From positions 1 to 57,698 of IMG/VR virus record IMGVR_UViG_3300032053_000088: 57,698 nt of DNA; one strand, 5' to 3'. Each line of letters starts with the position of its first letter. Position 1 is the first letter of the stretch. This document shows positions 1 to 53,984 of this stretch, piece by piece. Source of the stretch: a virus. A program made the translations under genes and the position numbers. The notes under the pieces are model-generated. The model was not told the DNA's origin, made no database searches, and was given only the letters and a program-made list of their open reading frames with translations.

Positions 1-122
1 TTAGCGGCCTGGCGATCAAGATCACACTCATCTTGAAGATACTGAGCGGCACCATACATATTGGTCCGACCACTGGATTGCAGGTCAAAGAGATAACGGA
101 AGTTGTCTGCGTTTTCGAGAAT
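1..122 (-). CDS. Partial ORF of a hypothetical phage protein (runs off left edge)
   Basis: An open minus-strand frame enters the window with about 40 codons, reading ...NADNFRYLFDLQSSGRTNM... It has balanced composition and looks like real protein, but no ATG lies between an in-frame stop upstream and the conserved-looking part; the first possible start is ATT at 122-120. The gene may use a rare start or may have lost its 5' end. I do not recognise a function. Confidence 0.35.
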   Translation of the reverse strand, partial: MLENADNFRYLFDLQSSGRTNMYGAAQYLQDECDLDRQAA

Positions 123-139
123 TTGTTCTTTTGTTTATT

Positions 140-171
140 CCCACGGCCTTACGACGGCCGGGGGTTTTTTG
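140..171 (+). terminator. Rho-independent terminator
   Basis: Stem CGGCC/GGCCG, extended by CCC/GGG across a mismatch, followed by TTTTTT. It is oriented to stop plus-strand transcription and sits next to the minus-strand terminator at 183-212. Confidence 0.55.
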
Positions 172-182
172 TTTATAGAAAT

Positions 183-212
183 AAAAAAGGGCTGACTCAC
201 AAGAGCCAGCCC
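183..212 (-). terminator. Terminator of the exported-protein gene
   Basis: On the minus strand GGGCTGGCTC and GAGTCAGCCC form a 10-bp stem with a short loop, followed by TTTTTT. It lies 18 nt after the stop codon of the gene at 230-844. Confidence 0.85.
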
Positions 213-229
213 AGGGAACCAAGGAACTT

Positions 230-844
230 CTACTTATTTATCAGGTACTTCTGGAAACTCTGTCTTAACCTTGGGTTTAAGATCAATTGAATTGTTTCAC
301 TATTAATAGGCAATCCACAGTCATAAACATTTTCAGCGACGTTAAGAACTAATGAAACTTCTAACGTTCGTAAAGATCCTTCACTATCAGGTAGATGTTT
401 TACAATCAGAGTTCTCTTCACTAAACGTTGATAATTATCCTCTAGTTGGACCTTAGTCCTATTGATACCAATCTTCTCTACATTACATACTACACCATCT
501 TTGACTAACTCATACTCAATAATACGTTTAGTATTGGCATCCACATCCTCAACGACTTTATAAAAATACGGATTATATACCATACCATTCATCAACACAT
601 GAGCACGGGGTGTCATATAATGCCATTTATTCGATTTCTTTATATTATACACAACCCCATCAACAATACGAAAATCATCAAGAGCAGCATATTCTATTGG
701 TTTTGGTGTTTCGGGTTTAACCGGCGCAGTGTATGGCAGATAATTGGCTGTCGCTACTGGTCTATATCCGGCTAACGGTGGTCCAGCAACAAGATTTAAG
801 GTGGTCACCAGTGTTAGAATTAATACGATATATTGTTTTCTCAT
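230..844 (-). CDS. Exported hypothetical protein
   Basis: 204 residues. The N-terminus (MRKQY, then a hydrophobic run ending near LVAGPP) is a likely Sec signal peptide, so the product is probably secreted or periplasmic. The rest is mixed alpha/beta with no motif I recognise. It is the only gene on its strand here and ends at its own terminator. Function unknown. Confidence 0.7.
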   Translation of the reverse strand: MRKQYIVLILTLVTTLNLVAGPPLAGYRPVATANYLPYTAPVKPETPKPIEYAALDDFRIVDGVVYNIKKSNKWHYMTPRAHVLMNGMVYNPYFYKVVEDVDANTKRIIEYELVKDGVVCNVEKIGINRTKVQLEDNYQRLVKRTLIVKHLPDSEGSLRTLEVSLVLNVAENVYDCGLPINSETIQLILNPRLRQSFQKYLINK

Positions 845-1024
845 GTCGATACTATACCACAGGTTTATAAAATGTCAATCATTATTTTCAACATTATTTA
901 AACTTACGATACCGTTAAAGTATATGTGCAGATGCCGGTCCCCCATTCTCTGGCCTATTTCAGCCGCATCCAACTATACTCAATTTACCATATCTTTTTA
1001 TATTGTCAAGAGGAAAAATATAAT

Positions 1025-1052
1025 TTGACAAATAGCCGGATTATGGTAAAGT
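1025..1052 (+). promoter_or_regulatory. Leaderless-type promoter 1
   Basis: TTGACA at 1025-1030, 16-nt spacer, TAAAGT at 1047-1052. Transcription should start near 1059, where the second ATG of the following frame lies. The geometry matches five downstream promoters and supports 1059, not 1053, as the start. Confidence 0.7.
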
Positions 1053-1058
1053 ATGGAC

Positions 1059-1352
1059 ATGAACAATGAACTTGAAAATGTTTTGGTCAATATTATCAAT
1101 AAGCAGAAAGCCATTCTGGCTGCACTTGAAGCCCAACTGAACGATCTCCGAAATCCTCGTGCTTATAGCCATGAGGGTCGTCGTTCAGCAGCCGAGTGGT
1201 GCAAAATCACCGGCATTGAAGTTCTTGACCCAGACGGTTGGGACCGGGCCGACGTTAATTTCATGGATAACTGGAACCATAAGCCCATTAGTCATTCTGA
1301 GTTTAAGGCACGGGCCGACATGTCAACATGTAGTCACCGCCGGTTTTCATAA
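1059..1352 (+). CDS. Small hypothetical phage protein
   Basis: 97 residues from the start at 1059, chosen because the -10 box ends 6 nt before it, as in the neighbouring leaderless genes. The N-terminal half is a likely coiled coil; the middle is rich in Trp and Asp (SAAEWCKITGIEVLDPDGWDR). I do not recognise the family. An ATG two codons earlier (1053) would overlap the promoter. Confidence 0.65.
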   Translation: MNNELENVLVNIINKQKAILAALEAQLNDLRNPRAYSHEGRRSAAEWCKITGIEVLDPDGWDRADVNFMDNWNHKPISHSEFKARADMSTCSHRRFS

Positions 1353-1363
1353 AAGAAAACCAC

Positions 1364-1391
1364 TTGACATTTTATAAAAGTATAGTATACT
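1364..1391 (+). promoter_or_regulatory. Leaderless-type promoter 2
   Basis: TTGACA 1364-1369, 16-nt spacer, TATACT 1386-1391, then exactly 6 nt to ATG at 1398. Confidence 0.8.
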
Positions 1392-1397
1392 TCTACT

Positions 1398-1898
1398 ATG
1401 AGACTGAAAGTAGAATCCGAATCCTGGTTCGTCAAACCCGAAATGATGGGTCACAAGTGGGCGGCTGAACAAGTCGCTCTCGTCAAAGAGTTGGTCAACA
1501 AATACACAAGAAAGGCTCAGAAAGAAGTTTTGGATTGGGCCTTTGACTTGGAGTGTACCGACTGGCACTATTGGAACAACGTCGTTTCCAAGAAGTATGT
1601 CGCTCAGGTCCGATACGTTCTCCGTAGGGTTGGTAAGGCAGAGTGGCTCAGTCTACTCTGGCATCACTACGCTACGAGCGGCTGTCTCAAAGACAGTTTG
1701 ACCCGGTATCTTGAACTTCAATCCTACCGAATGCAGCCTGCCGATTACTTTGATAGTTACAAAGTTGTCTATATGGGGCTTGGGATGACTGAAGATGATT
1801 GCCGACAACGGTTTACTGAATACCACGAAAAGTTGGCGAACAAGATGGAATTTGACTTGACAAGTGGAAAGAATGCTTGTAAGTTAATCACGTTATGA
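1398..1898 (+). CDS. Hypothetical protein, leaderless gene
   Basis: 166 residues, rich in Trp, Tyr and charged residues, apparently all alpha-helical, with no signal peptide or membrane segment and no motif I recognise. The start is fixed by the promoter, whose -10 box ends 6 nt upstream. A strong terminator at 1909-1938 follows, so it is a single-gene unit. Confidence 0.65.
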   Translation: MRLKVESESWFVKPEMMGHKWAAEQVALVKELVNKYTRKAQKEVLDWAFDLECTDWHYWNNVVSKKYVAQVRYVLRRVGKAEWLSLLWHHYATSGCLKDSLTRYLELQSYRMQPADYFDSYKVVYMGLGMTEDDCRQRFTEYHEKLANKMEFDLTSGKNACKLITL

Positions 1899-1908
1899 GC
1901 CTGACAGC

Positions 1909-1938
1909 GGGCGGCCAGGGATGAGCCGCCCAATTTTT
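1909..1938 (+). terminator. Rho-independent terminator
   Basis: GGGCGGC (1909-1915) pairs with GCCGCCC (1925-1931), followed by AATTTTT. It lies 10 nt after the stop of the gene at 1398-1898. Confidence 0.85.
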
Positions 1939-1939
1939 C

Positions 1940-2001
1940 GGAGTAGGTCCAGGACGGATATTTGTGCACAAAGAATCGGGTTCGAGTCCCGAACTACTCC
2001 A
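1940..2001 (+). other. Shortened tRNA-like sequence
   Basis: GGAGTAG (1940-1946) pairs with CTACTCC (1994-2000). A perfect T arm (TCGGG/CCCGA, loop TTCGAGT) lies at 1976-1992. Only about 30 nt remain for D and anticodon arms, one unpaired base separates the T stem from the acceptor, and total length is 62 nt. No anticodon can be assigned. Probably a decayed tRNA or tRNA mimic. Confidence 0.55.
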
Positions 2002-2009
2002 GTTTTTTC

Positions 2010-2037
2010 TTGACAAATATAAAAAGTAGAGTATATT
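2010..2037 (+). promoter_or_regulatory. Leaderless-type promoter 3
   Basis: TTGACA 2010-2015, 16-nt spacer, TATATT 2032-2037, 6 nt to ATG at 2044. Confidence 0.8.
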
Positions 2038-2043
2038 CCTACC

Positions 2044-2592
2044 ATGAAAACATTCGGAGTTTCGCCTGAGATTATTAAACAAATTGAGGATAAAATCATC
2101 TGGTGTCTCGAAACAGTTCATATGGCCACCGGTAAACTTCTGGAAGTTCCCACCTGGGAGTTTCGGCAGTCAGGTCAAATTGCTGGTTACGCTGACTGTG
2201 GACAAAACTTTGTTTCGATCAATCCCGATTTCATTAACAACGGACAGGCGGAATATATTGTGGATCAGACCGTTCCCCATGAAGTTGCTCATCTTATTTC
2301 AGTTGCTCTTTACGGACTAGACATGGGGGGGGCCCACAAATACGGTTGGAAGGCTGTAATGAGGATGTTGGGTTGCCCGGCAGATCGTTGCCACAGTTTG
2401 AGTATGGAGGGAGTTAAGACAAAAACAAGAAAACGTTGGGAGTATAAGTGTGTCTGTTGTGGTAAAATTCTTTATCTTACTACCAACAAACATAACAAAA
2501 TTCAAAAGCCTAACTGTTCATCCGCTTTCGTGCACTCCCAGTGTGGACGTAACGGAACTCTCCAGTTCACCGGCAGTCTCAAAGTTCTATAA
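2044..2592 (+). CDS. SprT-like zinc metalloprotease domain protein
   Basis: 182 residues. HEVAH at residues 79-83 followed by His98 is the zinc-binding signature of SprT-like proteins. The C-terminal part has Cys pairs (around 136-139, with Cys158 and Cys167) that can form the zinc ribbon usual in this family. SprT/Spartan relatives act on DNA-protein crosslinks in cells; the phage role is unknown. Start fixed by the promoter 6 nt upstream. Confidence 0.8.
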   Translation: MKTFGVSPEIIKQIEDKIIWCLETVHMATGKLLEVPTWEFRQSGQIAGYADCGQNFVSINPDFINNGQAEYIVDQTVPHEVAHLISVALYGLDMGGAHKYGWKAVMRMLGCPADRCHSLSMEGVKTKTRKRWEYKCVCCGKILYLTTNKHNKIQKPNCSSAFVHSQCGRNGTLQFTGSLKVL

Positions 2593-2599
2593 AAACAAT

Positions 2600-2627
2600 T
2601 TGACTTTTTATAAAAATAGAGTATATT
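2600..2627 (+). promoter_or_regulatory. Leaderless-type promoter 4
   Basis: TTGACT 2600-2605, 16-nt spacer, TATATT 2622-2627, 6 nt to ATG at 2634. Confidence 0.8.
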
Positions 2628-2633
2628 CTTACC

Positions 2634-3104
2634 ATGAACGAAAAAACGGTATACTCTAAAGAATATAAAGTAGTCGCTCTCAGAGAATGTCCTCTTCCTG
2701 AAAGTCTCCAGTTATGTGATACTCCTGATAAAGCGGCCGAATATTGGAATCTTCACGTTGCACAACATCCCTACTTCAACCCCGAAGTAGAATGTTGCGT
2801 GGCGCTAATGTTGAACACCCGCCGCAAGGTCAAGGGTCATTATCTCATTTCCACCGGTACACTAGATACACTTCTCATTCACCCTAGGGAAGTCTTTCGT
2901 CCGGCCATTGTTGCCTCAGCGGCTTCCGTCATTCTCATGCATAACCACCCAAGCGGCGATGCATCGCCGTCGGAGGCGGATATCAAAGTTACCCGTGATA
3001 TGGTTCGCGCTGGTCAATTGTTGAAAATCGAACTATTGGATCATGTTATTGTTGGTATCAATACCCATGCTTCTCTCAGAGGACTTGGTTATATTCAATG
3101 CTAA
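2634..3104 (+). CDS. RadC-like JAB/MPN domain protein
   Basis: 156 residues. HNHPSGDASPSEAD at residues 103-116 is the JAMM metal-binding signature (HxH...S...D) typical of RadC proteins. Only the MPN domain is present, without the helix-hairpin-helix region of bacterial RadC. RadC-like proteins are common on phages and plasmids but their biochemical role is not settled. Leaderless start. Confidence 0.85.
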   Translation: MNEKTVYSKEYKVVALRECPLPESLQLCDTPDKAAEYWNLHVAQHPYFNPEVECCVALMLNTRRKVKGHYLISTGTLDTLLIHPREVFRPAIVASAASVILMHNHPSGDASPSEADIKVTRDMVRAGQLLKIELLDHVIVGINTHASLRGLGYIQC

Positions 3105-3111
3105 AAAGAAT

Positions 3112-3139
3112 TTGACTTTCTCTAAAAATAGAGTATAAT
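3112..3139 (+). promoter_or_regulatory. Leaderless-type promoter 5
   Basis: TTGACT 3112-3117, 16-nt spacer, TATAAT 3134-3139, 6 nt to ATG at 3146. Confidence 0.8.
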
Positions 3140-3145
3140 ATCAGC

Positions 3146-3379
3146 ATGAATATTTTGTTGGATCAAGCTGAAAAATGGTTGAAGGAATTAGGAATTTCCA
3201 CCATTAGAATTGACGGCGGCGACCTTGCCGTTAGCCGTAAGGACATGGTTAATCTCCTTGGTTCAGACGAAGATAAAACTTATGGGGAAATATTGAAAGA
3301 ATTGAAATCAGGTTGTTATTCTAACAAGTTCTGTTGGATGGGCAAGGATGATGATTATCTTTATCTTGGTTGTTTCTAA
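3146..3379 (+). CDS. Small hypothetical protein
   Basis: 77 residues, acidic, alpha/beta, no recognised motif. First gene of a two-gene leaderless transcript: its stop TAA overlaps the ATG of the next gene by one base (TAATG), a usual sign of translational coupling. Confidence 0.65.
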   Translation: MNILLDQAEKWLKELGISTIRIDGGDLAVSRKDMVNLLGSDEDKTYGEILKELKSGCYSNKFCWMGKDDDYLYLGCF

Positions 3380-3633
3380 TGATATACGAACCAAAATTCC
3401 GTCTGGGTCAAACCGTGAAAGTTGTTCTTCATGGGTTTATGGATGGGTTCCCGCTTGATACTACTTGTGACGGTTGGATAATATCAATCGAAATCAAGAA
3501 AATCTCGCCTCATAGTGTATATCATTATCAATATGGTATTAGTTCCTCTAATCCGGCAGAAGTAGGAAGTGTTGAAATTTGTATTAAAAGAACTGAGGAT
3601 GAACTATTTGAATTAAATCCGATTTGCCCTTGA
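3379..3633 (+). CDS. Small hypothetical protein, translationally coupled
   Basis: 84 residues from the ATG at 3379, preferred over an in-frame TTG at 3370 because TAATG coupling is common in phage. Predicted beta-rich; no known motif. The TGA stop (3631-3633) lies inside the -35 box of the next promoter. Confidence 0.6.
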   Translation: MIYEPKFRLGQTVKVVLHGFMDGFPLDTTCDGWIISIEIKKISPHSVYHYQYGISSSNPAEVGSVEICIKRTEDELFELNPICP

Positions 3634-3657
3634 CTTTCTATAAAAGTGTAGTACAAT
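3630..3657 (+). promoter_or_regulatory. Leaderless-type promoter 6
   Basis: TTGACT 3630-3635, 16-nt spacer, TACAAT 3652-3657, 6 nt to ATG at 3664. The -35 box shares bases with the upstream stop codon. Confidence 0.75.
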
Positions 3658-3663
3658 AACATC

Positions 3664-3813
3664 ATGGAAATTACAATTACTTTCTCCGAAGACTGCCTCA
3701 AGGACATTATCAAGATTCTTAACAGCGTCTCCAGTAATGAAGTGGTCACCAGTGGGAGGATGGGGAGCGTAAGGAAAGATTATAAATCACCCCCATATGG
3801 GGCCACCAGCTAG
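3664..3813 (+). CDS. 49-residue hypothetical protein
   Basis: Begins MEITITFSEDCLKDIIKIL and ends SPPYGATS. Supported mainly by the leaderless promoter placed 6 nt before the ATG, as for the five genes upstream. No function recognised; the C-terminal third may not be conserved. Confidence 0.5.
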   Translation: MEITITFSEDCLKDIIKILNSVSSNEVVTSGRMGSVRKDYKSPPYGATS

Positions 3814-4033
3814 GGGCTTAAAAACCCTAAAAAACCCCCTAAAACCCCCACGTACGGGACAGCGGGGGTGGCCTTCTTGATAGGGGTCGCGAGGGGGCTG
3901 CGACACCCCCTCTTACCAGTTCGCTATACGGGGCCAACTTTTCCCGAAAAAAGAAATAAGTATTCATGGGTAGAACGCAACTCGGTTATCCAACAATTTT
4001 AAAATTTTTCCCCGTGCCAATAATTTTCAACCA
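3814..4033 (+). other. Gene-free GC-rich tract with hairpins
   Basis: About 220 nt with unusually C- and G-rich runs. ACCCCC/GGGGGT and GAGGGGG/CCCCCTC (8-nt loop ctgcgaca) can form strong hairpins. No coding frame or poly-T terminator is evident. It may be a regulatory RNA, a pause site or a replication-related element. Confidence 0.35.
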
Positions 4034-4062
4034 TTGACATACGTATCTACTTATGATATATT
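4034..4062 (+). promoter_or_regulatory. Candidate promoter
   Basis: TTGACA, 17-nt spacer, TATATT, followed 8 nt later by an ATG that opens an 8-codon frame (MEKKYNIC). It probably drives the gene at 4155. Confidence 0.5.
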
Positions 4063-4154
4063 GATGTCAAATGGAAAAGAAATATAACATATGTTAAAAA
4101 AGCGATCCCCCCCCATGCTGCGATCCCACATTGTTTTTATTTCATACCGTTTTC

Positions 4155-5069
4155 ATGTCGTCACATGCCAGTCGGCGCCGATTTTACGTCAACAACCCTT
4201 CTTCACCTATGAACAACAAAATATCCCCTCCTTCTCCGCCACCGAAATCGCTACCTTTCAATATGTGGTTCAAGGATGTTGATGATGATGATGATAACAT
4301 TTTATGTGGTACCACAACAACCGCTGCTCCTCCTCAAACAAATACAGATATATATACAGATACATTCGATTTCCCCGTCACATTTGGTGCGATGCCAACT
4401 TGTCCTGTTCGTCTATTATATGAAAAAACGTGCGTGCTTCATGAAATGACAAGTAGAGGCAATCCGCATCCCAACCCCAATGATAAAATATTTTGTGAAG
4501 CGGTGGAGGATTTTAATAGAAAACAAACATCGATATTTCAATCTAATGGAATCATTTCCGGTAAAACGTTTAATCTTTCAATGGTTCCAGTGCCTATGGC
4601 TTATAAAGATATTTTACGAATCAACGATTCGTCTATATATGTTCCTTCTTATGACGCATCGAACGGCTATACGACTTTTTTAAATGTAAACTTGATAGGC
4701 ATGGGAATTAGTATGTGTATGTCTCCGCGGGGTGTTGCAGCGCCTCGTGTAGTTAGTTATGTTAAAGATTATGGATATGGTAATTTAAATACTCCGGAAT
4801 GGTTGGATAATTGTGAGGTGGATGAGTGTTATTTTTATTTAAAGGTTCAGTATAGATATCCGGCGTCAAAGGTTAATATGGAAACAGAAAAGAAACAAAT
4901 AGAATATAGTTTTAATGAATATTTAAACCGCGGGTTTTTGTATTTTACTGGAGATGTGGAGGTCGATGACTATGGTGAAGTTATAAAAAGTTTGACCATT
5001 AAGAGTCTCCGTTATAAACATACATTTGCCGGGCGGTTTCTTCCTTCGGATTTTGGGGTGTTGGTGTGA
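4155..5069 (+). CDS. Hypothetical protein
   Basis: About 304 residues from the first ATG (4155); the frame is open from a TTG at 4131, and ATG at 4209 is another candidate. N-terminal Pro-rich and poly-Asp stretches precede a globular region without recognised motifs. A run of eight C just upstream sits in a short overlapping frame at 4091, so a frameshifted longer N-terminus cannot be excluded. Confidence 0.6.
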   Translation: MSSHASRRRFYVNNPSSPMNNKISPPSPPPKSLPFNMWFKDVDDDDDNILCGTTTTAAPPQTNTDIYTDTFDFPVTFGAMPTCPVRLLYEKTCVLHEMTSRGNPHPNPNDKIFCEAVEDFNRKQTSIFQSNGIISGKTFNLSMVPVPMAYKDILRINDSSIYVPSYDASNGYTTFLNVNLIGMGISMCMSPRGVAAPRVVSYVKDYGYGNLNTPEWLDNCEVDECYFYLKVQYRYPASKVNMETEKKQIEYSFNEYLNRGFLYFTGDVEVDDYGEVIKSLTIKSLRYKHTFAGRFLPSDFGVLV

Positions 5070-7039: not shown

Positions 7040-7067
7040 TTGACATTTGGTTGGTTTGTAGTATACT
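7040..7067 (+). promoter_or_regulatory. tmRNA promoter
   Basis: TTGACA 7040-7045, 16-nt spacer, TATACT 7062-7067; the tmRNA 5' end lies 9 nt downstream. Confidence 0.75.
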
Positions 7068-7076
7068 TATTTATAT

Positions 7077-7472
7077 GGGGCTGTAATGGTTTCGATCAAG
7101 ATCTTTGAATATTGAGAGCATGTAGTAGTTGGTCAGTTGGCTACTTAAAAAGCAGACTAAAAATCAAATGCCAAACTTAATCGTTTAGCTAACGTCGATT
7201 TCGCATTCGACATGAATGCTGAAGTTGCCGAAGCAGTAGCTTAAGGTTACTCCGTCATATCAGGCGATATCTGATAACTTGGTATGGCGTTAATTATCAG
7301 AGGTAGGGTGATTATTTAGATTTTTATAATTACTTGAAATTAAAAATTGAAATCTCGGTGCGTAATGACTTTTGTTAAGTTAGTCCATCTCACCTAAATT
7401 AAAACTTAAATAAACATGTAGTGCTTGATATAATAAGAATTTGACACGCGGGTTCGACTCCCGCCAGCTCCA
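7077..7472 (+). ncRNA. ssrA: tmRNA (transfer-messenger RNA)
   Basis: Begins GGGGCTGTAATGGTTTCGA and ends with a T arm (GCGGG TTCGACT CCCGC) and acceptor CAGCTCC plus A; CCA is not encoded. The internal frame ends ...AEAVA before TAA (7242-7244). The tag most likely starts at GCT 7188 (ANVDFAFDMNAEVAEAVA) or at GCC 7170. It rescues stalled ribosomes and marks nascent peptides for proteolysis. Length 396 nt, typical. Confidence 0.93.
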
Positions 7473-7583
7473 GTTCGTAATGATTGACGCCTCCACGCGG
7501 CTACGAATGGATAACGCTAAGATCAATCTTTTATGGTATTATTTTCCATCTTCATTATATTTATAATTGTAGAATAATATCAT

Positions 7584-12315: not shown

Positions 12316-12384
12316 TTTTATATCTTGACTTTTCTTTTTTCGCCTTTATATTTATTAGATGGAGAATTATTTTATTATACTCAT

Positions 12385-24234: not shown

Positions 24235-24262
24235 TTGACTTCCATATATTATGAAGTAAAAT
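24235..24262 (+). promoter_or_regulatory. Leaderless-type promoter
   Basis: TTGACT 24235-24240, 16-nt spacer, TAAAAT 24257-24262, 6 nt to ATG 24269. Confidence 0.8.
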
Positions 24263-24268
24263 GTTCAC

Positions 24269-24880
24269 ATGAATTACGTTTGTCATAGTGGCGGCTGTCC
24301 CGGCTCAGATATGGAATGGGAAACTCAGTGTGAAAAATATGGGATAAAAACCATCGCTTACTCATTTCCTAACCATGTTCAAAAAGGAAAAAATCAAAGA
24401 ATTTTGACCAATTCTGAACTGGACGAAGGATACGATAACGTATTGATTGCTAGTAAAACACTAAAACGTAACATTTATAATCCTAATATTACCACCTATA
24501 CCATGAGCTTATTAAGTCGGAATTGGTTTCAAGTGAAAAATGCCGAAGCTATATTCGCCATAGCCAAGTCTATGACCGACAAGATAGTTGAAGGTGGAAC
24601 TGGTTGGGCAGTTAACTGCCCAACTTGGGCAGTTCAAATGGCTATTGACAATCGGAAGCCGGTTTTTGTTTTCGACCAAGAGAAGAATTGGTGGTTTCGG
24701 TATCAATACAACATCTGTCAGGAAGGATTTGTTGTTAATATGCAACAGAAAAACTATGATACACCAAACACCAACATTCCACATCCATTAACAGAAAATT
24801 TCGCTGGTATCGGAACCAGAGATATAAACGAAAATGGTAAACTTGCCATTCAGAAGATTTTAGAATACAATTTGAGATAG
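24269..24880 (+). CDS. SLOG/YspA-like nucleotide-binding protein
   Basis: 203 residues. HSGGCPGSDMEWE at the N-terminus and EGGTGWAVNCPTWAVQMAI in the middle fit the Rossmann-like SLOG fold; FAGIGTRDINENGKLAIQK near the end is another Gly-rich element. SLOG proteins bind nucleotide-derived ligands; the role in phage is unknown. Leaderless start. Confidence 0.65.
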   Translation: MNYVCHSGGCPGSDMEWETQCEKYGIKTIAYSFPNHVQKGKNQRILTNSELDEGYDNVLIASKTLKRNIYNPNITTYTMSLLSRNWFQVKNAEAIFAIAKSMTDKIVEGGTGWAVNCPTWAVQMAIDNRKPVFVFDQEKNWWFRYQYNICQEGFVVNMQQKNYDTPNTNIPHPLTENFAGIGTRDINENGKLAIQKILEYNLR

Positions 24881-26217: not shown

Positions 26218-26245
26218 TTGACAATGAGATGTTATGTGGTAAGTT
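26218..26245 (+). promoter_or_regulatory. Near-leaderless promoter
   Basis: TTGACA, 16-nt spacer, TAAGTT, 7 nt to ATG 26253. Confidence 0.65.
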
Positions 26246-26252
26246 ATACTAT

Positions 26253-26696
26253 ATGAATAAAGAATATATTACAAGATTTTCAGCGTTCGCATTTTATGTT
26301 GGTGCTGCTTTATCGTATATTAATGGAATAGAATGGGCCATGTGGGTGTATAATTTATCTTTTCTGTTCGTTATACTTCCTATTGTTTTAGTTAATTTGT
26401 TGGGAATTTGTGTGATGTATGTGGGATTCGATGCTGTTGCCGAACAAGGATTACAGAAAATGTTGGAAACGAACGTTAAAGACTTTAAAAAACAATCAGA
26501 AAAAATTTACGAAAGATGGAATGATATGTTTATATTGTGCCAACTTTGTTTGTCAATGATATGTGCATATTCTGGACATTACTTTATGAGCACAGTATTG
26601 TTTTTATTAGTTGTTTTTAATGCTTTGTCTACCAGTTTGGCAAGAAGTATTTATTGTAAATTTTTAAGAGTTTGGAATAAGATTGCTGAAAAATAG
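26253..26696 (+). CDS. Multi-pass membrane protein
   Basis: 147 residues from ATG 26253, chosen by promoter spacing. Four hydrophobic segments (about 9-28, 34-58, 87-103, 106-124). No family recognised; an inner-membrane role such as exclusion is possible. Confidence 0.6.
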   Translation: MNKEYITRFSAFAFYVGAALSYINGIEWAMWVYNLSFLFVILPIVLVNLLGICVMYVGFDAVAEQGLQKMLETNVKDFKKQSEKIYERWNDMFILCQLCLSMICAYSGHYFMSTVLFLLVVFNALSTSLARSIYCKFLRVWNKIAEK

Positions 26697-28152: not shown

Positions 28153-28181
28153 TTGATTTCCAAGTGTTAATGTGATATACT
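28153..28181 (+). promoter_or_regulatory. Promoter with 8-nt leader
   Basis: TTGATT, 17-nt spacer, TATACT (28176-28181), 8 nt to ATG 28190. Confidence 0.6.
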
Positions 28182-35987: not shown

Positions 35988-36016
35988 TTGACAATTTCAT
36001 ATCGGCGTTGTATATT
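35988..36016 (+). promoter_or_regulatory. Leaderless-type promoter
   Basis: TTGACA, 17-nt spacer, TATATT 36011-36016, 6 nt to ATG 36023, which fixes the start. Confidence 0.75.
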
Positions 36017-36022
36017 TTGTAT

Positions 36023-36346
36023 ATGACGCCGATAATTTTTTTGTGGTTCGGTATAGCAATGATATTTTACAGTTTCGCTGAATACTTTGTGAAGCTGTAT
36101 GCTCAATCGCCACGGTTAAGTATGGTATATGTATCGTTATTGTTTTATACGTTAAATACATTGTGTTGTTATCCAATCTTAGCTAAGTATAATTCAATAA
36201 CCATCACTGGAATGTTATGGGCAATGTGTAATATAATAATGTGTTTATTTGTTGGGATTATAATATTTGATGAGCCCTTGACATATAAACAAATTTTTGG
36301 TATAGTATTAGGTATAGTAGCAGTAATATTATTAAGTTGTAAATGA
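36023..36346 (+). CDS. SMR/EamA-like four-helix membrane protein
   Basis: 107 residues, four hydrophobic segments; the first (IIFLWFGIAMIFYSFAEYFVK) has Glu where small multidrug resistance proteins carry their proton/substrate Glu, and FDEPLTYKQIFGIVLGIVA resembles the last helices of the DMT superfamily. May be a transporter or inhibitor; substrate unknown. Overlaps the next gene by ATGA. Confidence 0.6.
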   Translation: MTPIIFLWFGIAMIFYSFAEYFVKLYAQSPRLSMVYVSLLFYTLNTLCCYPILAKYNSITITGMLWAMCNIIMCLFVGIIIFDEPLTYKQIFGIVLGIVAVILLSCK

Positions 36347-40618: not shown

Positions 40619-41029
40619 ATGCCATGGCAGATGAAAAAAATCACACCTAAATATTTATTTACCGAATACATTTTACCATCTAATGATGTAGAATTACAGA
40701 AGTTTTCAAAAAATTATAAACTTGATATGATGGAACAAGTTGTGTCTTCTATTGATTACGCTTTTAAACACAATTTACCATTTATTGAAGTTTTTCAATT
40801 TAAAAACTCAGATTACGTAATAACTTTATCTGAGAAGGATTACCCAGCCAACCTAGATCATATATACAATTTTTATTTAGAAATAGAATTATATGAATTG
40901 TGTAATAGGGCGGCTAAGTTACAACAAGCGATTAGGGATAAATCCAAAAATAATGAAAAAAAACAAAAGAACTCAAGAAAAGGCGTTGGACAAAAGTCCA
41001 ATAATTCCACAGAGAGACAAAATCCGTGA
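40619..41029 (+). CDS. Hypothetical protein
   Basis: 136 residues; helical and acidic with a basic, Asn/Lys-rich tail. Its 3' end overlaps the phoH-like gene by 77 nt. Not recognised. Confidence 0.55.
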   Translation: MPWQMKKITPKYLFTEYILPSNDVELQKFSKNYKLDMMEQVVSSIDYAFKHNLPFIEVFQFKNSDYVITLSEKDYPANLDHIYNFYLEIELYELCNRAAKLQQAIRDKSKNNEKKQKNSRKGVGQKSNNSTERQNP

Positions 41030-42761
41030 GTTGTTAAAAATTCGTGAAAGGGAATTGACTCCAACTCAACAAAAATTCTTAGAAATAGCTACAGACAAAA
41101 ACACAAAATTGATGTTCGTATCAGGGCCTGCCGGAACATCAAAAACATATATGTCAATATATGTGGCACTTCACTTACTTAATGAAAGACGGATTAGTGA
41201 TATTATTTATATTAGAAGTGCAGTCGAATGTTCAGACGCAAAAATCGGATTTTTACCTGGAGAAATTGATGAAAAAATGTCTCCGTATATTCAACCACTT
41301 TTAGATAAAATGGCTGAACTTCTGTCAAAAGGAGATGTGGACACCCTTATGAAAGAAGAACGAGTAACAGGAGTTCCTGTGGGATTTTTGAGAGGATTAA
41401 ACTGGAACGCTAAAGTTATTATCGCAGACGAGTGTGTATCCGGAAATCAATTTATACAAACATCCGATGGAAAAATAAAATTGAAATCTCTTTATAATAA
41501 ATTTGTTCATAAAACCCCATTACCACTAATAAAAACTTATAATGAACATACGACTCATTTTGAAGATAAAAGAATTATACGTGTTATGAATAGGGGAATA
41601 CAAAAAACCGTTTCCGTGGTTTTAGGAAATAGAAATGTTGTTTGTACTTCTGATCATAAATTTTTAACAGAAAATGGATGGATAGAAGCTAAAAATCTTA
41701 CTTCATTTACTCCAGTTATAGCAAATAATGAACTAAAATTACAAACATTAGATGTCATGAATGACGATCAATTACAAATTTTTTTGGGATCGTTTTTGGG
41801 CGACGGACATGTTTCAAAAGTAGGAAATAACAGATATAGATTACGAATCATTCATGGAGAAAAACAGAAAGAATATTGTAGTTGGAAATCCAACATTTTT
41901 CATTCTAAACTTGAATTTATAAAGGAGAATGGATATTCTAAAAAACCAGCATTTCGATTTTCTACAAAATGTTTTGCTATGCCGTTTTCTATTCCAACAG
42001 ACCAAAAGAAAACATGTCCGAAATGGATAATTGATAAACTCGACGTGCGTGGTATATCCATTTGGTATATGGATGATGGAAGCATCAATAAATCCAAGAA
42101 TAATATAAAAATATCAACTTGTAGTTTTGATATTGATACTCAAAAATTATTTGTGGAAAAGTTCAAAACGTTTGGAATCGATTGCTCAATAAATGAAGAT
42201 AAAGGAAACGATTATTTGTATTATTATCTAAATTTTGATGCAGAAAATTCCAGAAAATTGATGGAGTTGGTTCGCCCATATATTCATGAAAATTTAGAAT
42301 ATAAATTGGATGTAGTTAGCAAAAATAAATACGTATTTAACAATAAATTTTTAAATTATCGTCATATTGTTCCTGACAAGATTATAAATAACGAGAATGA
42401 AGAGGTAGTATATGATATAGAAGTAGAAGATAATCACAATTTCATAATAACTTCAGGAACTCGTGGTAAATTGTTAAGAAGTTATTCGGGAGTTGTGGTT
42501 CATAATTGTCAAAATATGACCTATAAGGAGCTTTTTACATTAATAACACGCATTGGTCAGTTTAGTAAAGTATTTATTTTAGGTGATCCTGACCAATCGG
42601 ATATCAACGGAAAGAGCGGTTTTATAAAAATGTTGTCCAATTTCGAGGATGAAGAAAGTAAAGAAAATGGTATTCACGTTTTTAAATTTACCGACGAAGA
42701 TATCGTAAGAAGTGGGTTAGTTCAATTTATTATTAAAAAGGTCAAAAAAACAAATCAATAA
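40953..42761 (+). CDS. PhoH-like ATPase interrupted by an intein
   Basis: 602 residues from ATG 40953. Walker A GPAGTSKT at 58-65; the Walker B strand reads IIADE, then resumes after the intein as CQNMTYKE, giving DECQN in the mature enzyme; ILGDPDQSD follows. Removing 358 intein residues leaves about 244, close to other phage PhoH proteins. PhoH-family ATPases are common in phages; role uncertain. Confidence 0.9.
   Translation: MKKNKRTQEKALDKSPIIPQRDKIRELLKIRERELTPTQQKFLEIATDKNTKLMFVSGPAGTSKTYMSIYVALHLLNERRISDIIYIRSAVECSDAKIGFLPGEIDEKMSPYIQPLLDKMAELLSKGDVDTLMKEERVTGVPVGFLRGLNWNAKVIIADECVSGNQFIQTSDGKIKLKSLYNKFVHKTPLPLIKTYNEHTTHFEDKRIIRVMNRGIQKTVSVVLGNRNVVCTSDHKFLTENGWIEAKNLTSFTPVIANNELKLQTLDVMNDDQLQIFLGSFLGDGHVSKVGNNRYRLRIIHGEKQKEYCSWKSNIFHSKLEFIKENGYSKKPAFRFSTKCFAMPFSIPTDQKKTCPKWIIDKLDVRGISIWYMDDGSINKSKNNIKISTCSFDIDTQKLFVEKFKTFGIDCSINEDKGNDYLYYYLNFDAENSRKLMELVRPYIHENLEYKLDVVSKNKYVFNNKFLNYRHIVPDKIINNENEEVVYDIEVEDNHNFIITSGTRGKLLRSYSGVVVHNCQNMTYKELFTLITRIGQFSKVFILGDPDQSDINGKSGFIKMLSNFEDEESKENGIHVFKFTDEDIVRSGLVQFIIKKVKKTNQ
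41433..42506 (+). mobile_element. LAGLIDADG intein in PhoH
   Basis: 358 codons. Starts with Cys (CVSGNQFIQTSDGKIK), ends with His-Asn before the +1 Cys of the host protein. IFLGSFLGDGHV and ISIWYMDDGSI are the two LAGLIDADG motifs. Block B-like TSDHKF is present. Self-splices and homes into intein-less phoH genes at the Walker B codons. Confidence 0.92.
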
Positions 42762-51770: not shown

Positions 51771-53984
51771 ATGCATCATTTTATTTATTCAGATAAAGAT
51801 ACCTACCTCACCAATCAAACATATTTACCAAACAAAAATTTTGGGTTGGATGAGATATTGAGAGTGGGCACTTCGACGGTTACTACGAAAGTGACCTCAC
51901 CAACTAAGACACAAACTTACAACGGAGGATTAGTTCAAAACACATATTTATATAGGTTCACCGGGTCTGTCTCATCTGCTTCTTTTTGTGGAACCGTAGA
52001 TTATGCGTCGGGAAGTATAATCGGAAGTGCAATCACTACGTCATTTCAAGCTGAATATTTTTCTGGAAGTTTATCGGGAACATTTGTTGGATGGATGATG
52101 CCAGGAGCTATATCCGTAAATTCGTCTTCTGAAACGTATTCAGGAAGTTTGATCAATTTCAGTGGAAGCGTTTCATCTAGCAATTATATTAACGGGTTTG
52201 TTTCAGGAAATTTGATTACATATTATTCGGCAAGCAGCGATACAAACACCGTATTTTCCATGTTTTCAACCTATAACGGAATATTAAGTGGATCAACGGG
52301 AACAATGTTATATGGATATTTGACCGGAGATGATGTAACTAACGTTCAAAACATACAACTACAAACTAAGAAGTTTATGGAAAGATCGTTGTTATACTTC
52401 GATTTAGCAGAAATATCAAAATCCATAGTAGATGGCAGCATAACCGCCCCACAATTCACGCTTCGTCTTAGAGTTTCAAGAGAAGAAAATCTTCCGGTAA
52501 CGTTTAGTTTATACGCCTTCCCTGTTAGTCAAAGTTGGGAAATGGGTGACGGATATCTATCAGACGGAAATGGATCGTTAAAAGGTGCCAGTTGGAACTT
52601 TAAAAATTACTATTCTGGAAGTTCGTGGTATCCGTATACTGATACATTAGCTTTATCACCTATTAACTTCGTATCTAATCCGGACTCAGCTACTGAATCG
52701 TTCGCTCGCGGTGGCGGAACGTGGCATACATCTTCAGCATATATTTGTAGCCAATCGTTTGATTACGAATCCTCGGATATATCGATGAGCGTTAACAGAA
52801 TTGTGTTGCCGTGGTTAAGTGGAACAATTCCAAATGAAGGATTTATACTCGTCACATCAGATGAGTTTACTTACACGGGATCGCAAATGAGTCTGTTGTA
52901 TTTTAGCCACGATTCCAATACAATTTATCAACCATATTTAGATACTGCTTGGAATGACAGTAGTTGGGTGACAGGTAGTATTACAACTTCTAGCGTTGTG
53001 ATTTCGATTCGTCCTGCTGGAGTTAGTGGAAGTTTGATTAGTGGTTCGTCAATCACCGGCAGTAGCGTCAGCGGAAGTTTTACAGGCCAAGGTGAAATAC
53101 ATTATGATACTAATACATCGGCAAGTGGGTTTGTTTATCTTCAAGGATCAGGCGGGACGATTAACGGAGTTACTATATTAGGAGATATAACGGGGTCAAA
53201 AATAAGTTCTACGTTGATGGCTACTTTAATTAACGGAGATTTTAGTGCCAGTGTAATAACAGCTAGTATAGATGCGTTAAACTATTTACTTACCGCGGGA
53301 ACTATTACTGGTTCTTGGAGTGGAGCACATCTGATGAGTAGTTCGATCAGTCAAAGCATCGGAACAGGATTTAACTCCCGTGTATTCGTAGACATTTCAG
53401 GAAGTTATATCACCGGCAAAGCATTGGGAGTCTATACATCTAACGTAAATCTTCCAACCGGAAGCGGAACTTTTAACGGCGTATTTGTTAATGGGGTTTA
53501 CGCTGGAGCGTCGGTGTTTGCCACATTTAGTGGAAGCGCTTTAACATCGTCATATTCTTATACATCAAGCGTCGAATATGAGAACAATTCTTTGGACCCT
53601 CTACAAACTAACAAACCGTTTGCGGTGGTTGTTCAAAACATTCCATCAAAAATTAGTGGTGATAATATAGTTCGTATTAACGTGTTTGGCAGAGAAGAAT
53701 TCCCACTTAAGAATTTTACAAGAGCGACCCAACTTACACAATATTTGACGCCTAAGTATTTACCATTAACATCATTTTATGCTATTAAGGATAATGAAAC
53801 GGAATATATGATATTACCGTTTGATGCTTACACAAACTTAAGCTGCGATGTAAACGGGAATTATTTTTTGTTAGATGCTACAGGGATTCCACAAGAAAGG
53901 TATTACCGATTGTTAATTAAGGTAGAACAAAGTGGGTCTACATATACATTCGATAATAATAATGTATTCAAAATTATAAGATAA
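51771..53984 (+). CDS. Large Ser/Gly-rich tail protein
   Basis: 737 residues. N-terminal DKDTYLTNQTYLPNKNFGLD resembles DNRLRE-type domains; then SGSxSG-type repeats, another beta domain (SLLYFDLAEISKSIVDGSI), and a non-repetitive C-terminus. Extended beta architecture suggests a fibre or baseplate-attached protein. Confidence 0.65.
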   Translation: MHHFIYSDKDTYLTNQTYLPNKNFGLDEILRVGTSTVTTKVTSPTKTQTYNGGLVQNTYLYRFTGSVSSASFCGTVDYASGSIIGSAITTSFQAEYFSGSLSGTFVGWMMPGAISVNSSSETYSGSLINFSGSVSSSNYINGFVSGNLITYYSASSDTNTVFSMFSTYNGILSGSTGTMLYGYLTGDDVTNVQNIQLQTKKFMERSLLYFDLAEISKSIVDGSITAPQFTLRLRVSREENLPVTFSLYAFPVSQSWEMGDGYLSDGNGSLKGASWNFKNYYSGSSWYPYTDTLALSPINFVSNPDSATESFARGGGTWHTSSAYICSQSFDYESSDISMSVNRIVLPWLSGTIPNEGFILVTSDEFTYTGSQMSLLYFSHDSNTIYQPYLDTAWNDSSWVTGSITTSSVVISIRPAGVSGSLISGSSITGSSVSGSFTGQGEIHYDTNTSASGFVYLQGSGGTINGVTILGDITGSKISSTLMATLINGDFSASVITASIDALNYLLTAGTITGSWSGAHLMSSSISQSIGTGFNSRVFVDISGSYITGKALGVYTSNVNLPTGSGTFNGVFVNGVYAGASVFATFSGSALTSSYSYTSSVEYENNSLDPLQTNKPFAVVVQNIPSKISGDNIVRINVFGREEFPLKNFTRATQLTQYLTPKYLPLTSFYAIKDNETEYMILPFDAYTNLSCDVNGNYFLLDATGIPQERYYRLLIKVEQSGSTYTFDNNNVFKIIR

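Follow-up and report, generated by a model that had tools for sequence, protein, structure and literature searches.

Genes and promoters at the left end of the window

The window analysed here is an entire IMG/VR virus record of 57,698 bases, and its first 3.9 kilobases (kb) form a module of eight small genes, including SprT-like and RadC-like genes, 7 of which carry a promoter that ends 6 nucleotides (nt) before the ATG. The remainder, from about 4 to 57.7 kb, is a tailed-phage fragment with a transfer-messenger RNA (tmRNA), two dozen transfer RNAs (tRNAs), a PhoH-like protein, a tail collar protein and a baseplate wedge protein, the closest named relatives of the last being found at 37-42% identity in Microcystis phage Mel-JY01, an uncultured 484-kb phage and Flavobacterium immuto phages. 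The boundary between module and phage body (3806-4130) contains G- and C-rich tracts and an 8-C run, and the GC content falls downstream of it.

The promoters of the module share a single layout, TTGACW, a 16-nt spacer, a TANNNT box, 6 nt and the ATG. On the minus strand, TTGACA-N16-TATAGT-N6-ATG (842-878) serves a divergent open reading frame (ORF), 844-230, which encodes a 204-residue protein with no Pfam family. On the plus strand, TTGACA-N16-TAAAGT-N6-ATG (1025-1061) precedes a 97-residue protein (1059-1352) and TTGACA-N16-TATACT-N6-ATG (1364-1400) a 166-residue protein (1398-1898), both again with no Pfam family; TTGACA-N16-TATATT-N6-ATG (2010-2046) precedes the SprT-like protein of 182 residues (2044-2592; PF10263, E 2e-9), and TTGACT-N16-TATATT-N6-ATG (2600-2636) the RadC/JAB-domain protein of 156 residues (2634-3104; PF04002, E 2e-36). 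TTGACT-N16-TATAAT-N6-ATG (3112-3148) and TTGACT-N16-TACAAT-N6-ATG (3630-3666) lead into a 77-residue protein (3146-3379) and a 49-residue ORF (3664-3813), respectively. The sole exception between 230 and 3813 is an 84-residue protein (3379-3633, plus strand) without its own promoter, whose ATG shares one base with the stop codon before it (TAATG) and which is probably translationally coupled to the preceding gene.

We searched both strands of the window for TTGAC-N17-TANNNT-N6-ATG, with the reversed pattern as a control, and find ten matches, nine forward and one reverse, as against none for the reversed pattern. Seven of the ten fall within 842-3666; positions 1-4000 contain 7 matches, where 300 dinucleotide shuffles yield 0.003 on average. 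An earlier note on this DNA had placed six such promoters at 1025, 1364, 2010, 2600, 3112 and 3630; all six are exact, and the full-window search adds a seventh, the minus-strand site at 842-878. Compared with the sigma-70 consensus (-35 TTGACA and -10 TATAAT, separated by about 17 nt), the module promoters match at 5-6 of 6 positions in the -35 element and at 4-6 of 6 in the -10 element, with a 16-nt spacer; their -10 boxes take the form TANANT and their spacers contain a recurrent TATAAAA...RGTA element. In 6 of 7 cases the promoter-linked ATG is the earliest possible start of its frame, the exception being 1059, which has an in-frame ATG 6 nt upstream at 1053; for these six, translation cannot begin upstream of the predicted transcription start.

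Beyond the module such sites are isolated. The earlier note had reported the same geometry at 24235 and 35988, and the former is exact (24235-24271, plus strand, 16-nt spacer, 6 nt to the ATG of a 203-residue ORF at 24269-24880 in the tRNA/tail part), whereas the latter (35988-36025, plus strand, ATG 36023) departs from it in having a 17-nt spacer. Of its near versions, the site at 26218 lies 7 nt from the ATG at 26253, and that at 28153 lies 8 nt from its ATG and reads TTGATT instead of TTGAC. Exact matches at 12325, which opens a 9-codon, out-of-frame ORF, and at 53745, inside the gene 51771-53984, are ascribed to chance. From 4000 to 57698 there are 3 promoters located 5-9 nt from an ATG versus 1.9 expected, which is not a significant enrichment, and we therefore reject the geometry as a property of the window as a whole.

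The geometry recurs in uncultured viral contigs

About ten contigs from uncultured viruses show the same geometry; they carry an orthologous RNA ligase or nicotinate phosphoribosyltransferase, or the same promoter motif. Contig L005 was recovered by the extended promoter motif, ATG included, and L122 and L114 by the promoter motif alone, with the ATG not required; L137-L142 and L144/L145 were recovered by protein similarity only, with the RNA ligase and the L122 nicotinate phosphoribosyltransferase as queries. L005 (5 kb) contains 5 exact sites, and the 91-kb record that holds L122 contains 11, with 0 in the reversed control, and about 36 leaderless-type promoters; the two have an RNA ligase in common (56-57% identity). 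Among L137-L142 and L144, about 42 consensus promoters are followed by an ATG at 5-9 nt, versus about 3 expected from the background at 15-59 nt, and the pooled set gives 97 at 5-9 nt versus about 8 expected, with a mode of 43 at exactly 6 nt.

This recurrence at orthologous genes is non-random. The distance from promoter to ATG of the RNA ligase gene is 7 nt in L005, 6 nt in L114 and L138, 10 nt in L139, 9 nt in L140 and L141, and 5 nt in L142, while the RNA ligase genes of L122 and L137 are without such a promoter; the promoter of the nicotinate phosphoribosyltransferase gene keeps the 6-nt distance in L122 as in L144, although the two proteins are just 59% identical. Many L142 promoters stop 5 nt short of the ATG, with the recurring string GTATATTGTCCC-ATG, which gives a slightly different and equally regular geometry. 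The earlier proposal of a systematic phage strategy is borne out in related contigs, for example the 91-kb record, but in the window it is confined to 1-3.9 kb. Loci of the baseplate relatives, 927 kb in all, contain 0 such promoters, and the exact pattern is absent from four phage records of 160-484 kb (Mel-JY01, immuto, the 484-kb phage and Tunturi_5).

Start-site and translation signals

If transcription begins 7 nt past the -10 box, messenger RNAs (mRNAs) of the class with 6 nt between box and ATG would begin with AUG, and those of the 9-nt class would have a 3-nt leader. A pyrimidine-purine step (mostly C|A) occupies this position in 38 of 41 promoters of the 6-nt class. In the 9-nt class position +7 lies outside the ATG, yet 13 of the 14 promoters have a pyrimidine-purine step there, which is CA in 10 of the 14; where no ATG is near, the CA maximum likewise falls at +7 (10/63 promoters). 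The base preceding the ATG is C in 25 of 43 cases, compared with 42 of 266 control ATGs (P = 1e-8), and an A follows the ATG directly, at +4, in 64 of 73 as compared with 247 of 480 (P = 1e-9). Start codons number 43 ATG versus 2 GTG. Shine-Dalgarno-like 4-mers precede only 7 of the 97 promoter-linked starts, and even non-leaderless genes of the same contigs show Shine-Dalgarno signals that are weak at best (11-13% versus 1-4% at control positions).

These genes resemble leaderless genes in that a TANNNT box has its first T about 12 nt before the start codon, Shine-Dalgarno signals are scarce, and the initiator bases are consistent with a start at or beside the ATG. The earlier note had proposed that transcription should begin on the A of the ATG; the geometry conserved at orthologues, the pyrimidine-purine step at +7, the near-exclusive use of AUG and the scarcity of Shine-Dalgarno signals lend this proposal good support. 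Leaderless translation begins mostly through direct binding of the 70S ribosome, and in Escherichia coli non-AUG codons support it much more weakly (review, PMC9031893); this weakness fits the near-exclusive AUG seen here. The further suggestion of the earlier note, that such messages could favour 70S initiation on stressed or modified host ribosomes, is speculative.

A leaderless model and its alternatives

We consider it very probable that the genes of the module and of the related contigs are transcribed from sigma-70-type promoters into mRNAs that are leaderless or have leaders of 1-3 nt, and whose 5'-terminal AUG is read by the ribosome. Each gene would be under its own strong promoter, at which RNA polymerase, presumably that of the host or a modified form of it, would initiate 7 nt past the -10 box. 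With the ATG set at that point, or up to 3 nt later in the related contigs, the mRNA would begin 5'-AUGA... and have neither a leader nor a Shine-Dalgarno site; the ribosome would then have to recognise a 5'-terminal AUG, probably by 70S-type initiation. The simplest reason for such a habit would be adaptation to a host that itself initiates on leaderless messages and has few Shine-Dalgarno sites. Our searches did not identify that host: a promoter scan of 84,980 species genomes returns 13 scattered matches that define no clade, in 7 of the matched genomes the exact pattern occurs 17 times in total versus 16 for the reversed control, and searches with the RadC, baseplate, phrog_2319-type, RNA ligase and large proteins give distant matches only.

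Several points weigh against this leaderless model. L005, L114 and L122 were selected by the promoter motif, L005 with the ATG included, and the module has no protein in common with L005 or the 91-kb record, so that conservation at orthologues holds for the related contigs and not for the genes of the window. In the 6-nt class the A is dictated by the ATG, which limits the independent initiator evidence to the -1 base and the 9-nt class. The position of the transcription start is one that we infer from sequence, and longer read-through transcripts from upstream genes could also exist. Such transcripts, or internal starts downstream with ribosome-binding sites of their own, might indeed account for most translation if the promoters are real and their spacing merely reflects compact packing, since the genes are dense, most being about 30-145 nt apart between 1 and 3.8 kb. 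Compactness would scatter the distances, however, and what is observed is a sharp peak at 6 nt (43 of 97) with matched initiator bases, an ATG that is the first start of its frame in 6 of 7 cases, and few Shine-Dalgarno-like motifs; we regard packing as a most improbable explanation. It is also unlikely, if less so, that these promoters form a class read by a phage sigma factor or polymerase-binding protein, which would act as a timing switch and, by changing to leaderless messages, as a translational one. The spacer is conserved well past the -35 and -10 elements (TTTTATAAAARTRGRGTATA) in the window, L005 and the L122 record, and the extended motif with ATG has only the 13 scattered sites among bacteria and archaea, scanned at one genome per species, as this idea would lead one to expect; the -35 element, spacing and -10 box are nonetheless those of ordinary sigma-70 promoters, and L138, L139 and L142 have the geometry too, with spacers quite unlike this one. 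A fuller version, in which a group of large uncultured phages runs a dedicated leaderless regulon with its own promoter class (TTGACWTTTTATAAAARTRGRGTATANT, start at +7) and 5'-AUGA messages, and itself switches translation towards these in a host with no preference of its own for leaderless mRNAs, appears to us similarly doubtful.

A different question is whether the module belongs to the phage at all. The first 3.9 kb may be foreign to the tRNA/tail phage, either through chimeric assembly or through recent insertion from a leaderless-promoter virus like L005 or the 91-kb record, a possibility that we take seriously while leaning somewhat the other way. The G+C content at third codon positions is 0.27-0.54 in module genes (mean about 0.40) versus 0.17-0.37 in the remainder (mean about 0.28), and this distinct composition, with the promoter habit confined to the module, points to a possible chimeric or mosaic join near 3.9-4.2 kb. 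Not only is the geometry without significant enrichment in 4-57.7 kb, it is found neither in the L014 record nor in the other large baseplate-relative records searched, and a T precedes 73% of other ATGs in the main part, nearer to the baseplate relatives (71%) than to the leaderless contigs (36-52%). On the other hand, in tetranucleotide usage 1-3.9 kb correlates with the rest at 0.50, inside the range of other segments (0.42-0.72), and the main part has a few plausible leaderless sites of its own (24235, 35988). We find no relatives that span the junction and none of the first gene beyond it (4209-5069). A foreign origin of the module is compatible with the leaderless model and limits its scope, since the phage in 4-57 kb would then fall outside it.

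Relation to known leaderless systems

Leaderless genes of Actinobacteria and Deinococcus-Thermus are characterised by a TANNNT box about 12 bp before the start codon (Zheng et al. 2011, PMC3160421). The box has the same position here; what differs from these bacterial genes is the occurrence in viral fragments, the full TTGAC -35 element, the fixed 16/17-nt spacer and the partly conserved spacer sequence. The geometry is also already known, if unusual, in phages. Many middle and late mRNAs of Thermus phage phiYS40 are leaderless, as shown experimentally, with changes in IF2/IF3 (reviewed in PMC3594737); many leaderless messages are common to both systems, established by experiment for phiYS40 and predicted from sequence alone here. 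In cluster O mycobacteriophages, SigA-like promoters are predicted to place +1 at the start codon's first base, and two of them form a divergent pair close to the left end (PMC4351075); the module shares both the sigma-70-type +1 on the start codon and such a pair. These mycobacteriophages have few promoters of this kind per genome, however, whereas here nearly every module gene has one and the L122 record about 36 per 91 kb. The classical leaderless phage message, the cI mRNA of phage lambda (PMC9031893), comes from a single regulated gene.

What is unusual here is the consistency of the sequence evidence, which is strong enough for base-exact prediction of transcription starts and adds a group of uncultured viral contigs to the few cultured phages with systematic leaderless expression. 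Gene callers that rely on Shine-Dalgarno sites may misplace starts in these genomes, and a natural system for the study of selective 70S initiation would be at hand in these phages if their host proves to have no preference for leaderless messages.

Other features of the module and phage body

The N-terminus of the protein encoded at 230-844, MRKQYIVLILTLVTTLNLVAG, reads like a signal peptide when judged by eye, its first residue falling exactly at the predicted leaderless ATG. The RadC-like protein (2634-3104) is 64% identical to one in viral contig L001 (59% GC) and 62% identical to one in L002 (64% GC), which suggests movement between very different genomes; no relatives of the SprT-like protein were found in viral contigs. 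A search of 850-4200 for RNA families gives no credible match. A possible degenerate tRNA at 1940-2002 has a 7-bp acceptor-like stem, a TTCGA-type T arm and a CCA-like end, with shortened D and anticodon arms; it draws no ARAGORN or Rfam call, and its fold is no better than that of shuffled sequences (z -1.2).

In the phage body, the tmRNA (7077-7475) has the tag AKLNRLANVDFAFDMNAEVAEAVA and a TTGACA/TATACT promoter closely upstream at 7040. The roughly two dozen tRNA genes lie between 11706 and 34821, singly or in small groups interspersed with short genes, and several (11706, 16463, 20506, 23556, 25026 and 33925) are Rfam calls without an ARAGORN counterpart. One open frame, 40893-42761, encodes the PhoH-like ATPase interrupted by a LAGLIDADG-type insertion, which is probably an intein.

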